A DNA stretch of 64,000 nt from Lutimonas zeaxanthinifaciens (GTDB lineage Bacteria; Bacteroidota; Bacteroidia; Flavobacteriales; Flavobacteriaceae): NCBI RefSeq assembly GCF_030503675.1, contig NZ_CP129964.1, positions 186,001 through 250,000 of the forward strand, written 5' to 3'. This document shows, one piece after another, positions 33,775-38,968 of the stretch. The notes under the pieces were generated by a model, which was given only the letters and a program-made list of their open reading frames with translations, was not told the origin of the DNA and ran no database searches. Position 1 is the stretch's first letter. Each line of letters begins with the position of its first letter. A program made the position numbers and the translations under genes.

Positions 33775-35016
33775 ATGCAAAAGAGTAAGGAGGTTTTTTA
33801 CAAAATTTGCTTTGATTCCCTGTTAGAGGGGATTTGTATTGCAAATCATGAGGGGAGAATTGTCATGAATAATTCTGCCGTAGAGGAGTTGTTTGGTTAT
33901 GAAAAGGGAGAATTAACAGGAAAAGAGATAACACAGCTGATTCCGGAAGCTCAACGGAAAATTCATTTAGAATATTTTCAAAATTTTATTAAACATCCCA
34001 GAAAATATAAAAAGGGTAAAGGGAGAGAATTTTTAGGTCTTCATAAAAATGGGCAAGTGCTTGATCTGGAAATCGGATTGAATTACTTTAGACATGAAGG
34101 GAAATTTTATGCGAAGGCGCTTATTTCAGAAATAAGTATACGCAAGCGAAAAGAACTCCGAATCAAGGAGAAAAACAAAAACCTGGAACTGGTGGTAGAA
34201 GAAAGAGAAGATCAGCTGATTGGTTTGGTTTCGGAACTTGAACTTTCCAATAGAAAGCTCAAAGAGGAAATTAAAGAAAGGGTATTTGCTGAGCAAAGGG
34301 CCAAATTGGCGTTTGAGAAGGAAAAAGAACTGAATATCCTGCAAACTAAATTCATTTCGCTGGCTTCTCATGAATTTAAAACACCTTTAAGTGGCATAAT
34401 GACTTCTGCCTCCTTGATTCAAAAGTATAATGAGGTACAATCCAATCCACGTATTGCCAAACATACAAATACAATTAAGTCACTGGTGGGCCAACTCAAT
34501 AATATATTGGATGATTTTCTATTTCTGGAAAATTCGGAAAGGAAAGGGTATCCAATGCATTTGTCCAGATTCAGGTTGTCTGATTTGATAAATAAGTTGG
34601 TCGAAGATGCCACAGCATTATTAAAAGAAGGACAAAACATCAAGATTTCTCCCTTTGACCCTAGCACAGAATTACAACATGACAGAAAAGTTATTGATAT
34701 CATTATCAGAAATGTCTTATTTAATGCTATAAAATATTCGAGCAGGAACTCGACCGTCAGCATAAAAATTTGTACCCAAAATGATTTGAAACTTGTTATC
34801 GAAGATCAGGGAATTGGTATACCAAACGAAGCGAAGGAATATATTTTTGACAGGTTTTACAGAGCGAAAAATGCTCTACCAATTCAAGGAACAGGGATAG
34901 GCCTGAATATTGTAAAAAGACATTTACAAAGAATCAATGGTTCAATAGATGTTGAAAGTGAAGAGAAGATAGGGACCAAGGTGTCAATTGATCTTCCCTT
35001 GTCAATTGAGGATTAA
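33775..35016 (+). CDS. PAS-domain sensor histidine kinase
   Basis: A 413-residue cytoplasmic kinase with no transmembrane segment, so it senses an internal signal. Order: PAS domain (about residues 8-122, with GRIVMNNSAVEELFGYEKGEL), a long charged coiled coil (125-188), then HisKA with the phospho-acceptor His199 in ASHEFKTPLSG. The HATPase domain follows, with N box IRNVLFNAIKYSS, G1 DQGIGIP and G2 GTGIGLNIV. It lies 29 bp upstream of the receiver-CRP/FNR gene and is its obvious partner. No cofactor motif (haem, Fe-S) was recognised, so the ligand of the PAS domain is unknown. Confidence 0.93.
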   Translation: MQKSKEVFYKICFDSLLEGICIANHEGRIVMNNSAVEELFGYEKGELTGKEITQLIPEAQRKIHLEYFQNFIKHPRKYKKGKGREFLGLHKNGQVLDLEIGLNYFRHEGKFYAKALISEISIRKRKELRIKEKNKNLELVVEEREDQLIGLVSELELSNRKLKEEIKERVFAEQRAKLAFEKEKELNILQTKFISLASHEFKTPLSGIMTSASLIQKYNEVQSNPRIAKHTNTIKSLVGQLNNILDDFLFLENSERKGYPMHLSRFRLSDLINKLVEDATALLKEGQNIKISPFDPSTELQHDRKVIDIIIRNVLFNAIKYSSRNSTVSIKICTQNDLKLVIEDQGIGIPNEAKEYIFDRFYRAKNALPIQGTGIGLNIVKRHLQRINGSIDVESEEKIGTKVSIDLPLSIED

Positions 35017-35045: not shown

Positions 35046-36077
35046 ATGAAAAAGAAGATCTTAATCATTGAGGATGATACAATCGTCAGAGAAAACACTA
35101 CTGAGATATTGCAATTGGCAAATTATGATGTGATTTCAGCTGAAAACGGAAAGATCGGTATTGAAAAGGCTTCCTTTTTTAAACCGGACCTTATTATTTG
35201 TGATATATTAATGCCGGATCTTGATGGATACGGAGTTCTTCAGATCCTAATGAGAAACAGGTCGCTTCAAAAGATCCCGGTAGTTTTTATGTCAGCCAAA
35301 ACCAAACATGAAGATATAAGAAGAGGAATGGACCTGGGTGCAAGTGATTATATCACAAAACCGTTTGAAGAATCAGAATTATTGAGCGCGGTGGCTACTC
35401 GGTTGAAGAGAAAGGAGATTTATGAGAGAAACATAGAAAAGGAAAACAGGAGTCCGCGTAAATTGAAGATTGATGAAATAGAAAGGGTCTTTAAGTTTAA
35501 GGAATCAGTTGAATATAAGGCTGGGTCAACCGTTTATTGCGAAGGGAATGTGAGCAACCATATTTTTTACATTGTCAAAGGGGAGGTAAAAACGTTTAAG
35601 GTTAACCAGGATGGAAAGGAATTAATTACAGAAATATATTCAGACAAAAGTTTTTTCGGGTTTACCTCGTTACTGGAAAGTTCTCCGTATGTAGAAAATG
35701 CTGAAGCGATTAAAGACACTAAGATATTGAGAATCCAAAAGAATGAATTTTTTCAAATAATAAAGGATAATCCTGAATTAGGCCTCAACTTTATCGACAT
35801 GCTGTCGCATGACCTTGAATTCATTAAAGATCATTTAATGCATTTGGTATATGATTCAGTGCGAAGAAAAACAGCTGATGCAATTATTCAATTGCACGAC
35901 AAAAGAGGAGGTCAAAGCCCCATAGAAATTTCCAGGTCCGATCTTGCCAGTTTTCTAGGCATTGCCAAGGAAACGCTGACAAGAACTTTGACAGATTTTA
36001 AAGAAGAAAACCTTATCTACACCCAAAAGAACGAGATACGCATTAAGGACAAGGAAAAACTCCAGAAAATTCAGTGA
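35046..36077 (+). CDS. Response regulator fused to CRP/FNR-type DNA-binding protein
   Basis: A 343-residue hybrid regulator. Residues 1-122 are a receiver domain with acidic pocket Glu9-Asp10-Asp11, phospho-acceptor Asp53 (ICDILMPD), Ser83 and Lys105 (ITKPF). Residues 150-265 form a cyclic-nucleotide-binding-like beta-roll (GSTVYCEGN, FYIVKGEVK) and 270-343 a CRP/FNR winged helix. The recognition helix AKETLTRTLTDFKEE has Glu309, Thr312 and Arg313 at the positions that in FNR (Glu, Ser, Arg) read TTGAT half-sites. It has only two cysteines (Cys52, Cys165), so it cannot hold an FNR-type Fe-S cluster; input should come through Asp53. Four nearby promoters carry matching paired boxes. ATG 35046 is used rather than TTG 35043. 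Confidence 0.93.
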   Translation: MKKKILIIEDDTIVRENTTEILQLANYDVISAENGKIGIEKASFFKPDLIICDILMPDLDGYGVLQILMRNRSLQKIPVVFMSAKTKHEDIRRGMDLGASDYITKPFEESELLSAVATRLKRKEIYERNIEKENRSPRKLKIDEIERVFKFKESVEYKAGSTVYCEGNVSNHIFYIVKGEVKTFKVNQDGKELITEIYSDKSFFGFTSLLESSPYVENAEAIKDTKILRIQKNEFFQIIKDNPELGLNFIDMLSHDLEFIKDHLMHLVYDSVRRKTADAIIQLHDKRGGQSPIEISRSDLASFLGIAKETLTRTLTDFKEENLIYTQKNEIRIKDKEKLQKIQ

Positions 36078-36099: not shown

Positions 36100-36165
36100 C
36101 TGATCAAAATCAACGTTGGCGCTGACCTGGGTCAATGACTTGCATTGATGATTTTTATAGATTTA
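36100..36165 (+). promoter_or_regulatory. uspA promoter with tandem FNR-like boxes
   Basis: Distal box CTGATCAAAATCAA at 36100-36113 (9 of 10 matches to TTGAT-N4-ATCAA); proximal box CTGACCTGGGTCAA at 36122-36135 (7 of 10, an exact inverted TGACC-GG-TCA core). Centres are 36106.5 and 36128.5, 22 bp apart. The -7 box TAGATTTA (one mismatch) begins at 36158, 29.5 bp after the proximal centre, placing that box near -43 relative to a start about 16 nt before the uspA ATG. Same geometry as three further promoters in this module. Confidence 0.72.
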
Positions 36166-36187
36166 GAACAATCTAAAATTTATCATT

Positions 36188-37033
36188 ATGAAAAAGATTC
36201 TCTTACCCACGGACTTCTCTGAGAATTCCATAAATGCTATTGAATATGCCACGGAGCTGTTTAAGGATATGAACTGTAAATTCTATCTTCTGAATGTTTT
36301 CAAAATTCCGTATTTGGCAAATGAGGAATTAATGGAGCATAACGCCACACAATTGGCGGCACTGGAAGAAGAAATGTACGATCATTCCATTGAAGAAATG
36401 AATAAACTTCTCGAAAAAATTCCGAAAAACTCGAAGCATGAGTATGAAACCATCAGCGATTATAATTTATTTAGCCTCGCAGTTCATCAGGTTGTGACCG
36501 AAAAGGAGATCGAACTGATCATTATGGGAACAAAGGGAGCAACAGGAGCAAAGGAAATATTTATGGGAAGTAATACCAGCGATGTAATAATGAGAAATGC
36601 GTGTAACGTGATTGCCATTCCGGAAAATCATACGTTTAAGTTTCCTAAAGAAATTGTATTCCCAACCGATTTTGAAATCAGATACAGTTCAGATGACCTG
36701 GCACCCTTATTGGATCTGGTCAGAAAATTTGATTCCTCGATTCGCGTTGTTCACTTTAGTGATAGTGATGAATTGGAAGAACATCAAATTGAAAACAAAA
36801 GGGTCCTGGATTCCTTTTTGAAAAATGCAAATCACGCGTATTACACCTTGTCAAATGATGATTTCGACGAAGGTATCAATTGCTTTGTTCAGAGCAGAGC
36901 AAATATTGACATGATCATGATCATAGGTCGTCACTACGGTTTTTTTGAAAGACTATTTTTTAAACCGAAAGTAAGAACCTTGAGTTTCCATACGAAGGTA
37001 CCTTTGTTTGTGGTACATCATAAAACCGAATAG
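36188..37033 (+). CDS. Universal stress protein, tandem UspA domains
   Basis: A 281-residue protein with two Usp domains. The first (1-143) begins MKKILLPTDFSENSINAIEYA and has the nucleotide-binding loop GTKGATGAKEIFMGSNTSDVI. The second (about 150-280, from EIVFPTDFEI) has lost the equivalent glycine-rich loop, a common degenerate tandem arrangement. Members protect cells during growth arrest and low-energy states. It lies 110 bp downstream of the hybrid regulator behind its own paired-box promoter, and its TAG is directly followed by the ATG of the next gene. Confidence 0.93.
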   Translation: MKKILLPTDFSENSINAIEYATELFKDMNCKFYLLNVFKIPYLANEELMEHNATQLAALEEEMYDHSIEEMNKLLEKIPKNSKHEYETISDYNLFSLAVHQVVTEKEIELIIMGTKGATGAKEIFMGSNTSDVIMRNACNVIAIPENHTFKFPKEIVFPTDFEIRYSSDDLAPLLDLVRKFDSSIRVVHFSDSDELEEHQIENKRVLDSFLKNANHAYYTLSNDDFDEGINCFVQSRANIDMIMIIGRHYGFFERLFFKPKVRTLSFHTKVPLFVVHHKTE

Positions 37034-37423
37034 ATGATGGATATATCAATATTTCTTGCAAAATTCTGGGGTTGGTACTTTATGCTCTTTTTTGTTCTTT
37101 TCATAGTCTATCCGAAAAGGATAAAGCAAATGTTTCAATTTGCTAAAGAGGATCAATTCATGATCATATTATCAATTTTAGGAATAATCATTGGACTTCT
37201 GCATATTCTGGCCCATAATTTATGGGTAATGGACTGGAGGATAATTATTACACTCTTCGGGTGGTTTAGTTTGATGAAAGGAATAAGTCAGTTTGCTTTC
37301 CCGGGATTAGCAAACAAATGGGTTAATAATATTGATTTTAAGTGGTTTCAATTTATTTTGTTCTTATTGTTTTTGGTAGGATTGATTTTACTGAATCAGG
37401 CCTATCAATGGGTTCTTTATTGA
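37034..37423 (+). CDS. Four-helix membrane protein co-transcribed with uspA
   Basis: A 129-residue protein with hydrophobic helices near residues 10-28, 41-58, 68-88 and 106-125, including WGWYFMLFFVLFIVYP and HILAHNLWVMDW. No known family with a defined role recognised. The ATG at 37034 abuts the uspA stop codon with zero spacing, so it is surely in the same operon. Two FNR-like boxes for the next unit lie right after its stop. Confidence 0.82.
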   Translation: MMDISIFLAKFWGWYFMLFFVLFIVYPKRIKQMFQFAKEDQFMIILSILGIIIGLLHILAHNLWVMDWRIIITLFGWFSLMKGISQFAFPGLANKWVNNIDFKWFQFILFLLFLVGLILLNQAYQWVLY

Positions 37424-37438
37424 AAAATTACTACTGAA

Positions 37439-37504
37439 TTGATCAGAATCAATCAAAGTATTGATTCTGATCATTGTTTTGTATTTAGTTTCATTTTAAT
37501 TTTG
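37439..37504 (+). promoter_or_regulatory. Promoter with tandem FNR-like boxes and no downstream gene
   Basis: Distal box TTGATCAGAATCAA at 37439-37452 is a perfect 10 of 10 match to TTGAT-N4-ATCAA; proximal box TTGATTCTGATCAT at 37461-37474 matches 9 of 10. Centres 37445.5 and 37467.5, 22 bp apart. The -7 box TAATTTTG (exact) begins at 37497, 29.5 bp past the proximal centre. The two boxes together also form a 14-bp inverted repeat (37440-37453 with 37460-37473), which could be mistaken for a terminator. Predicted start near 37511. Confidence 0.72.
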
Positions 37505-37510
37505 AACTAT

Positions 37511-37743
37511 TAAATTAAAATTCTATCAAGGATTTACTTTATAAACAAATTCTATGAAGCTTTAAAAGGCAATGCAGGTTTCGACATGCAAAGCCTCTGA
37601 ATCGAAGATGGTTTTTATAGATTAACATTTACCTGACTGATGATTAAGATCTGCTAAGGAATTTAATGTAGGGTATACTTAAGTGTAAAAGTTATTTTTG
37701 ATTTAAGGGAACAGGAAATTAAAAACTTCCTGTTCTTTTTTTT
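37511..37743 (+). ncRNA. Candidate small RNA controlled by FNR-like boxes
   Basis: About 230 nt between a strong paired-box promoter (-7 box at 37497-37504) and a strong intrinsic terminator (37709-37743), with no credible open frame on either strand. The longest ATG frame on the plus strand noticed is 17 codons at 37572. Inside, AGGC-AA-TGCA at 37567-37576 can pair with TGCA-AA-GCCT at 37587-37596 around a 10-nt loop, a hairpin with a symmetric internal loop. A promoter and terminator flanking non-coding DNA are what a small regulatory RNA gene looks like; no known RNA family was recognised. The start point is a prediction. Confidence 0.45.
37709..37743 (+). terminator. Intrinsic terminator of the candidate small RNA
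   Basis: GAACAGGAA, 9-nt loop, TTCCTGTTC, then eight Ts. It cannot belong to the membrane-protein gene, whose stop is about 285 bp upstream beyond an intervening promoter, unless that transcript has a long 3' tail. Confidence 0.85.
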
Positions 37744-37761
37744 ATATGTTTTTCAATTTTA

Positions 37762-37827
37762 CTGATTAGGATCATTTTTTCTTATGAGCGGGGTCATTGT
37801 GGGTTGAACTTCCGTTAAGTAATTTTA
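37762..37827 (+). promoter_or_regulatory. Promoter with tandem FNR-like boxes upstream of the PepSY-like gene
   Basis: Distal box CTGATTAGGATCAT at 37762-37775 (8 of 10); proximal box ATGAGCGGGGTCAT at 37784-37797 (6 of 10, keeps the TGA-N6-TCA core). Centres 37768.5 and 37790.5, 22 bp apart. The -7 box TAATTTTA (one mismatch) begins at 37820, again 29.5 bp after the proximal centre. The weakest single box of the set, but identical geometry. Confidence 0.62.
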
Positions 37828-37874
37828 TTTCAAGCAATGAGTAACAGTATTTATTAATTAAAACCCAAATCGTC

Positions 37875-38381
37875 ATGAAAAAAATATTTTTAGGTTTACT
37901 AGCACTTGGGTTAACCGCCCAATTATCTGCTCAGGTAGTCGATGACGGCATGTTACCAGAAGTTGAGGTCCGTGCCACAAACTATAAATACCTGAACAGC
38001 GTTGATAACACCGAAGCAGCGGTACCGGTGAAACTTCTTGAAGATATGGTTGCCAAATTTGATGTTAAGAGTTCTGAATTTTACGAAGATGGCAATGACT
38101 TCTATAGAGTATATTTCTACATACCTGAAGGAAAAATAGTAGCTGCCTATGATCGAGATGGAAAGATCCTTTATACCATCGAAAAGTTTAAAAACGTGGC
38201 CTTACCCGATAATGTAGCCTCTGCGGTAGCAGAAAGGTTCCCGGGATGGTCAATCGACAAGGATGTCTACAGGGTTAATTACGATGTAGATTTAGGAACA
38301 AACAAGCGCTATAAATTAGTTCTTAAAAATGGTAAAAAAACCATAAGAGTTAAAGTTGATGAAGATGGTGTTTTTCTATAG
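37875..38381 (+). CDS. Periplasmic PepSY-like (DUF2874-type) protein
   Basis: A 168-residue protein with a signal peptide (residues 1-19, ending LSAQ). Two beta-alpha-beta PepSY-like units follow: VKLLEDMVAKF with YRVYFYIPEGKIVAAYDRDG, and VASAVAERFPGW with YKLVLKNGKKTIRVKVDEDG. Such small exported proteins are common in Bacteroidetes and lack a proven function. It is transcribed from its own paired-box promoter and followed by a strong terminator, so it is a single-gene unit of the stress module. Confidence 0.85.
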   Translation: MKKIFLGLLALGLTAQLSAQVVDDGMLPEVEVRATNYKYLNSVDNTEAAVPVKLLEDMVAKFDVKSSEFYEDGNDFYRVYFYIPEGKIVAAYDRDGKILYTIEKFKNVALPDNVASAVAERFPGWSIDKDVYRVNYDVDLGTNKRYKLVLKNGKKTIRVKVDEDGVFL

Positions 38382-38399
38382 GCTGATTTAATCAACCTG

Positions 38400-38430
38400 A
38401 AAAAGTTGCCTTCCGGGGCAACTTTTTTTT
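38400..38430 (+). terminator. Intrinsic terminator of the PepSY-like gene
   Basis: AAAAGTTGCC, loop TTCCGG, GGCAACTTTT plus T-tract. Its last base touches the distal FNR-like box of the hsp20 promoter (38430-38443). Confidence 0.88.
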
Positions 38431-38495
38431 TGACGACAATCATTCGGCCGGTTGATTTGGATCATTGCAAAAATTGATCTCTGGTTTTATCTTCG
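38430..38495 (+). promoter_or_regulatory. hsp20 promoter with tandem FNR-like boxes
   Basis: Distal box TTGACGACAATCAT at 38430-38443 (8 of 10); proximal box TTGATTTGGATCAT at 38452-38465 (9 of 10). Centres 38436.5 and 38458.5, 22 bp apart. The -7 box TATCTTCG (one mismatch) begins at 38488, 29.5 bp after the proximal centre. The predicted start lies about 23 nt before the hsp20 ATG at 38525. Confidence 0.7.
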
Positions 38496-38524: not shown

Positions 38525-38968
38525 ATGACTCTTGTAAAATTTAAAAGACCCAGATTACCTTGGTACGACAGCATGTTCACAGATCTTTTAGGTTCTGACA
38601 GGTTGCTTACCAATGACTTTTTTATGGAAGACAAATGGATTCCGGCAATGAATATCAAAGAAACTGAGGATTCCTATGATATCGAATTTGCAGCTCCAGG
38701 TTTTAATAAAAAAGATTTTGAAGTATGTATTGAGAACGGTGTGTTAAAAATCGAAGCTGAAAATAGCGAGGAGAAAAAGAAAGAGAAAAAAGATTACACT
38801 CGTCGAGAGTTTAACTACAATTCTTTTTACAGATCATTTACTTTACCCGAGAACGTAAATGAAGACGAAAAGATCGATGCGACCTACAAACGTGGTATCT
38901 TGAAATTAGTTTTGAACAAAGTTCCTGAAGTGGAACCTACCCCAAAACATATGATTGAGGTTCATTGA
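38525..38968 (+). CDS. Hsp20/alpha-crystallin-family small heat-shock protein
   Basis: ATP-independent chaperone of 147 residues. The N-terminal arm starts MTLVKFKRPRLPWYDSMF. The alpha-crystallin domain spans about 40-138, with IKETEDSYDIEFAAPGF, VLKIEAENSEEKK and the signature YKRGILKLVLNK (the A/GxLxLxLP-equivalent). The frame extends to a TTG at 38465 inside the promoter boxes; ATG 38525 fits the family start and the predicted transcription start. It is part of the regulon inferred around the hybrid regulator. Confidence 0.94.
   Translation: MTLVKFKRPRLPWYDSMFTDLLGSDRLLTNDFFMEDKWIPAMNIKETEDSYDIEFAAPGFNKKDFEVCIENGVLKIEAENSEEKKKEKKDYTRREFNYNSFYRSFTLPENVNEDEKIDATYKRGILKLVLNKVPEVEPTPKHMIEVH

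Follow-up and report, generated by a model that had tools for sequence, protein, structure and literature searches.

Which regulator reads the paired FNR-like boxes that stand in front of four transcription units in a 64,000-nucleotide stretch of the Lutimonas zeaxanthinifaciens genome, and does the arrangement reach beyond that locus? The stretch (the window, C1:186001-250000) belongs to the single contig, C1 (NZ_CP129964.1), of 3,534,456 bases that makes up this genome. The analysis revealed a real, conserved and genome-wide promoter architecture, in which about two dozen promoters, many of them of stress-type genes, share a rigid box pair in Lutimonas and its relatives. The best explanation overall, which we consider probable from the sequence comparisons, is that a two-component system composed of a PAS sensor kinase and a protein with a receiver domain fused to a CRP/FNR output (REC-CRP), both encoded beside the four units, runs a genome-wide stress-type regulon via these tandem boxes.

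Twin-box promoters across the genome

A strict twin-box pattern was defined as TGA-N6-TCA present twice with the centres 22 bp apart, and the start of the TAnnTTTG-like -7 box was counted from the end of the proximal box, which places it at offset 23. The window sequence contained every one of the eight boxes reported in a preliminary description, with the same 22-bp spacing and with the -7 boxes at the four positions stated there (Table 1); one of these -7 boxes is an exact TAnnTTTG, and the other three match five of the six specified bases. Its counts of consensus matches (9/7, 10/9, 8/6 and 8/9 for the four pairs) proved correct when recounted by eye.

The strict pattern was found at 23 sites in the 3.53-Mb genome versus none for the reversed control, and the twin form of TGAY-N4-RTCA, with up to two mismatches allowed, at 53 versus five; the two-box scan thus places the pattern far above random frequency. 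Spacing was equally rigid, as 35 of the 37 distinct box pairs in two Lutimonas genomes (19 of 20 and 16 of 17) lay exactly 22 bp apart in a scan of spacings from 14 to 34 bp, with the first box required to begin with TGAT. At offset 23, all 22 strict sites located outside long open reading frames showed, on one side, at least four of the six bases of TAnnTTTG, with 15 reaching at least five and four reaching six, and at other offsets between 10 and 39 no more than seven of the 23 sites reached at least four bases and two at least five, taking the better side of each. The remaining strict site, at 2805638, lies inside a long open reading frame and has no -7 box. The judgement that a chance origin was very unlikely is therefore upheld by the reversed-pattern, spacing and offset controls, and the idea of a local regulon had to be dropped, since 19 of the 23 strict sites are beyond the window. 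Among the three bases following a box, TTG was the commonest (13 of 46 strand-sides), and may represent a -33-like TTG bordering the proximal box.

For Flavobacterium psychrophilum, the available portion of PMC9723704 assigns the TAnnTTTG box to -12 to -5. With this placement, the centres of the proximal and distal boxes would fall at -41.5 and -63.5, respectively, so that by analogy the proximal box, a palindromic TGA-N6-TCA operator, is best placed at the classical class II position, instead of near -43, as had been proposed on the assumption that transcription begins 14 nt beyond the -7 box.

Table 1. Positions within the window of the twin-box promoters, the genes around them and the predicted RNA
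Feature	Position	Strand	Basis
PAS-HisKA-HATPase sensor kinase	33775..35016	+	Pfam PAS_9, HisKA, HATPase_c
REC-CRP: receiver domain, cNMP-binding fold, Crp HTH	35046..36077	+	Pfam Response_reg, cNMP_binding, HTH_Crp_2
uspA promoter, distal box CTGATCAAAATCAA	36100..36113	+	Pattern search of the window
uspA promoter, proximal box CTGACCTGGGTCAA	36122..36135	+	Pattern search of the window
uspA -7 box TAGATTTA, 5/6 bases; start predicted near 36170	36158..36165	+	Placement at -12 to -5 (PMC9723704, available portion)
Universal stress protein (Usp)	36188..37033	+	Pfam Usp
M129, small hydrophobic protein	37034..37423	+	No Pfam or NCBIfam match
RNA promoter, distal box TTGATCAGAATCAA	37439..37452	+	Pattern search of the window
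RNA promoter, proximal box TTGATTCTGATCAT	37461..37474	+	Pattern search of the window
RNA -7 box TAATTTTG, 6/6 bases	37497..37504	+	TAnnTTTG match
Predicted structured RNA, about 235 nt	37509..37743	+	Fold z, shared helix order, covariation
RNA small hairpin	37567-37596	+	Predicted fold
RNA long composite stem	37598-37705	+	Predicted fold
RNA terminator hairpin, then T run	37706-37738	+	Predicted fold
168-aa gene promoter, distal box CTGATTAGGATCAT	37762..37775	+	Pattern search of the window
168-aa gene promoter, proximal box ATGAGCGGGGTCAT	37784..37797	+	Pattern search of the window
168-aa gene -7 box TAATTTTA, 5/6 bases	37820..37827	+	TAnnTTTG match
Protein of 168 amino acids (aa), earlier called PepSY-like	37875..38381	+	No Pfam or NCBIfam match
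hsp20 promoter, distal box TTGACGACAATCAT	38430..38443	+	Pattern search of the window
hsp20 promoter, proximal box TTGATTTGGATCAT	38452..38465	+	Pattern search of the window
hsp20 -7 box TATCTTCG, 5/6 bases	38488..38495	+	TAnnTTTG match
Hsp20 small heat-shock protein	38525..38968	+	Pfam HSP20

REC-CRP as candidate regulator and the single-box promoters

REC-CRP carries PF00027 and PF13545 above the cut-off, placing it in the CRP/FNR superfamily, and also PF00072, as a response regulator, with HisKA and HATPase_c in the neighbouring gene. The PAS kinase is probably its partner; among the 18 fetched loci with a long REC-CRP match, 16 have a kinase homologue next to this gene, the check covering all but ends of the L086 type. 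When the CRP/FNR proteins of the L. zeaxanthinifaciens genome that exceed the HTH cut-off (five of seven listed) were compared by eye, an E-x-x-x-R helix of FNR type was seen only in REC-CRP (KETLTR) and in an FNR-like protein (TESTIR).

Within a sample of 199 Flavobacteriaceae genomes, the twin-box pattern was present in seven (21 sites in L. zeaxanthinifaciens, 18 in its congener G025, 8 in G146, 7 in G116, 4 in G181, and one each in G047 and G054), and REC-CRP in 87, of which 85 have it at close to full length and two as a partial match (G194; G116, at a contig edge). All seven twin-box genomes have the REC-CRP gene, G116 as a fragment only, versus 87 of 199 overall (Fisher p = 0.0027), and the five best REC-CRP matches of the sample belong to five of these seven. 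In addition, twin-box sites adjoin the REC-CRP gene in L. zeaxanthinifaciens, G025, G146, G181, G047, G116 and locus L104. In a 36-row tree, which combined other rows with 33 REC-CRPs taken from the sample or the fetched loci and left out the remaining ones of the family, the REC-CRPs of L. zeaxanthinifaciens, G025, CSMAG_2821, G146, G047 and G181 formed one clade, with support 96/86. In the relatives, 29 distinct strict sites showed TAnnTTT(G/A) at offset 23 on 17 strand-sides, compared with a mean of 0.3 at other offsets. The co-occurrence and co-location make REC-CRP, as had been suggested, the likeliest regulator of the twin-box promoters, a role that is likely but unproven on these comparative data; it does not stand as the sole reader of the core box. 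No publication describing a REC-CRP regulator that uses these boxes was listed by the literature searches, and this widespread regulator of the Flavobacteriaceae is apparently undescribed.

Analysis of 12 other REC-CRP loci revealed single boxes, with 39 offset-23 matches among 62 TGAY-N4-RTCA boxes and a mean of at most 0.12 at other offsets in any locus. In 11 of them the nearest downstream uspA is preceded by one box and a -7 box matching five or six of the six bases at offset 23; the twelfth, L093, had no uspA match. A different tandem motif in these 12 loci was rejected, as an enumeration of half-sites, gaps and spacings gave at most three copies and inspection showed single boxes. A family-wide search for a box followed by an exact TAnnTTTG gave 1423 matches in 173 of the 199 genomes, with near-zero controls, the mean per genome being 11.0 in the 87 REC-CRP-positive genomes versus 4.2 in the 112 others (Mann-Whitney p = 1.7e-17). 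These data indicate that the proximal geometry is general to FNR-type promoters of Flavobacteriaceae and that the second box is special to the Lutimonas clade, where it is probably derived, since other Flavobacteriaceae with REC-CRP keep one box beside it at the same distance. Conservation had been expected wherever the regulator is retained, and this holds for half of the arrangement: the proximal box stays, at an unchanged distance from the -7 box, while most of these relatives lack the second box. The earlier proposal of shared promoters with a fixed geometry is supported; two dimers, however, would be no general requirement of REC-CRP, because most REC-CRP genomes use a single box.

The L. 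zeaxanthinifaciens genome contains 26 exact single-box promoters, four of which are the proximal halves of twin-box sites, and some of the remainder precede NuoA-, GluTR-, ResB-, CobW/HypB-type and multihaem proteins, a respiratory flavour that would fit an FNR-like regulator. The FNR-like paralogue of REC-CRP (C1:2039254, 229 aa) scored 98.3 bits against NCBIfam Fnr NF008365, below its cut-off of 228.

Several observations weigh against assigning the boxes to REC-CRP. Seven of the 22 intergenic strict sites have only four of the six -7 box bases. The REC-CRP of G054, with its single twin-box site, falls outside the clade, on a long branch. Single-box promoters also occur in genomes without REC-CRP, which rules it out as the only reader of the core box and implies that the FNR-like paralogue may read it too; the latter is present in six of the seven twin-box genomes (absent in G054) and shares the E-x-x-x-R helix. 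Ten REC-CRP loci outside the Flavobacteriaceae or poorly classified (L105-L114) gave a single offset-23 promoter among 36 boxes, so that the two, regulator and geometry, are not invariably linked. Finally, G138 (L268/L282) has copies of the RNA described below, boxes and uspA without a REC-CRP match, either because another protein reads the boxes there or because REC-CRP was lost from the assembly.

The paralogue itself could bind the twin boxes, with REC-CRP having other targets or modulating the paralogue. Its TESTIR helix, its distribution and the use of the same core box and -7 distance by single-box promoters are in line with this; however, it is also present in all five tested genomes without a twin-box site, strict sites are absent between 1788442 and 2301581, the region that surrounds its gene, and four strict sites adjoin REC-CRP instead, which leaves it as an unlikely binder. 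Slightly less likely still, each pair could be read by one REC-CRP dimer and one FNR-like dimer, the promoter being a coincidence detector of two signals: the boxes are alike, and both proteins, with their E-x-x-x-R helices, coexist in six of the seven twin-box genomes, yet G054 has one site and no paralogue. We tentatively propose a wider reading, quite possibly correct though short of an even call, in which a REC-CRP stress regulon of the Flavobacteriaceae has in its core a new structured RNA family of up to four tandem copies, and a second exact box makes the code shared with FNR private in the Lutimonas clade, so that architecture, not box sequence, separates two paralogous regulons.

A predicted structured RNA downstream of M129

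The unit located between M129 and the 168-aa gene (37439-37743) has its own twin-box promoter and terminator. It had been described as gene-free, which is right in that no protein gene lies directly downstream of the promoter and incomplete in that a structured RNA is predicted there. Its fold had a z-score of -3.79, with none of 200 shuffles as stable, and equivalent units were also scored, in L. halocynthiae (-4.93), CSMAG_2821 (-4.31), G146 (-6.68), G181 (-4.26) and G116 (-4.03). The helix order is the same in the relatives' units, and 15 of 42 consensus pairs showed double changes among four sequences. Eleven other genomes contained 28 copies, one to four per locus, all of them downstream of M129. 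In a subset of 16, picked by eye as the most alike, 95.9% of the cells were paired and 26 of 45 pairs were changed on both sides, compared with 12.2 +/- 2.1 in shuffles (0 of 500 reaching the observed value) and at most nine in a slid alignment. All 28 copies together gave 33 pairs, 23 of them double-changed, and recovered the closing stem, the inner stem and the terminal hairpin, though not the third helix.

A covariance model of the relatives' repeats, R2, finds the RNA in 20 of the 199 genomes (E <= 0.001), 18 of which have REC-CRP (Fisher p = 8.8e-6), the exceptions being G051, with a weak match, and G138. In 17 of these 20 genomes a box with its -7 box precedes the first detected copy at a distance of no more than 100 nt; in G120 the box promoter is 262 nt from the RNA copy, and none was found upstream of it in G037 and G051. 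Several copies adjoin REC-CRP without M129, in G007, G028, G031, G061 and G195, and M129 itself is present in 31 of the 199 genomes, 29 of them REC-CRP-positive.

No Rfam 15 family scored above its gathering threshold in the window or in 11 relatives' loci, and the sub-threshold matches to plastid, CRISPR, L20-leader and mir-1255 families were judged to be due to chance. R2 matched the window unit with 30.5 bits (E 0.003), reverse-strand matches to the palindromic terminal hairpin reaching 42.7 bits, and with stricter filters and E 0.001 it found nothing in L. zeaxanthinifaciens or G025. Given this weak cross-match, a common family rests on the position after M129, the box promoter, the order and size of the helices and a shared hairpin core: in all 17 folded units a long composite stem gave way, within 6 nt, to a terminal hairpin, whose core, AACAGGAA...TTCCTGTT, is common to Lutimonas-type and repeat-type units. 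By synteny and architecture, the Lutimonas unit and those of other genera would be homologous.

It is improbable that the unit is a mere untranslated stretch with a terminator, or a tiny-peptide gene, with no functional RNA. A 17-codon frame is apparent in it on visual inspection, and the R2 score on the window resembles the reverse-strand noise; against this stand its own promoter and terminator, the fold z-scores of -3.8 to -6.7 in six genomes, the covarying pairs, and the one to four strongly covarying copies in other genera. The unit is thus a credible candidate for a new structured RNA, as modelled from fold and covariation.

As to its promoters, the window box pair (37440-37473) forms jointly a 14-bp perfect inverted repeat, the other three window pairs being less symmetrical. 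In the relatives, the -7 box of the RNA promoters is often TAnnTTAG in place of TAnnTTTG, unlike that of the neighbouring uspA promoters.

Targets, proposed mechanism and known systems

Targets were assigned by a Pfam scan of the proteins downstream of the boxes, omitting those after 594284, 557289, 557922, 1713698 and 1741840. Four Usp proteins were found, two after strict sites (36188, in the window, and 3071342) and two after sites with one mismatch (1700014 and 3138227). Other targets are Hsp20, in the window, dodecin (3419971), a molybdopterin oxidoreductase (2301581), with an ExtM-like multihaem cytochrome, below the NCBIfam cut-off, on the other side of the site, an AMP-binding enzyme (2577585), an esterase (722583), a TonB-plug protein (572822) and, at one-mismatch sites, FtsH (3108665) and a C_GCAxxG_C_C protein (1169983). 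Four scanned target proteins have LRR_4 matches, one of them below the cut-off, and two of the four also have Flg_new_2 repeats. The scan gave no match for the targets at 587937, 1702799, 1788442, 3083809, 3115026 and 3416516.

In the mechanism that we propose, the PAS kinase and REC-CRP would form the two-component system controlling this regulon, with phosphorylation as its presumed switch. Two REC-CRP dimers would occupy the tandem boxes centred at -41.5 and -63.5, the proximal one overlapping the -33 region and contacting sigma-A RNA polymerase in the manner of a class II CRP/FNR activator, and the distal one contributing either cooperativity or selectivity over the FNR-like paralogue, the user of single boxes. 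The outputs would comprise Usp proteins, Hsp20, FtsH, dodecin, redox enzymes, lipoproteins and the structured RNA, which may be made and act in trans. The promoter code can be read as box, 22 bp, box, 23 nt, -7 box, and offers a testable case in which architecture may separate two paralogous regulators with the same core box; in addition, it provides a candidate small-RNA family under these regulators, in a group with few known.

Class II or tandem CRP/FNR promoters of Escherichia coli have TTGAT-N4-ATCAA-like boxes with the proximal centre at -41.5, and are alike in the palindromic boxes and, on the placement and mechanism proposed here, in this position and in a second dimer about two helical turns upstream. 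Unlike them, the promoters described here have one fixed 22-bp spacing at some two dozen sites and a Bacteroidota -7 box, and their proposed regulator is fused to a receiver domain where the E. coli proteins sense cAMP or carry an Fe-S sensor. In the anaerobic or stress regulons of ANR and FixK2, of the FNR family, and in that of DosR, a single regulator likewise governs Usp, small heat-shock protein and redox enzymes, DosR also being two-component; the system described here, in contrast, combines the receiver and the CRP/FNR output in a single protein and would count a predicted structured RNA among its targets. The small RNAs FnrS, PhrS and AniS are under FNR-family control, and the RNA proposed here would similarly be a direct target of an FNR-type activator, but it has no Rfam match, and in related genomes it occurs as one to four copies in tandem, every copy combining a long composite stem with a conserved hairpin at its end. 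Rfp18, a small RNA of F. psychrophilum reported to act on proteases (available portion of PMC9723704), and other small RNAs of that species are alike as strongly structured flavobacterial RNAs, set beside ours by description only.

Two near-identical twin-box promoters, at 592701 and 594284, lie about 1.6 kb apart before LRR lipoprotein genes, and an identical 34-mer is present in the same cluster at 589199 and 590487. The near-identical flanks suggest that some copies arose through duplication, and the 34-mers that the cluster grew in this way. The flanks of this one pair are what could recommend chance or a dispersed repeat as the source of the twin-box pattern, an explanation that we count as refuted by the lack of reversed-pattern matches, the exact spacing and offset, the distinct flanks and the retention in other genera.

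Finally, two strict sites have no protein gene directly downstream, that of the RNA (223440, window 37440) and another at C1:1762490-1762523. The latter has an exact -7 box, TACATTTG, with no ATG frame of at least 50 codons downstream in its direction; a hairpin-like inverted repeat follows shortly past it, and the next gene seems to be oriented towards the promoter. A second RNA from this perfect twin-box promoter was discarded, as the RNA model R1 had no match in the stretch (L029). In G181, a second gene-free promoter-terminator unit with its own twin boxes (L085, 7119-7296) replaces the 168-aa gene of the other genomes.

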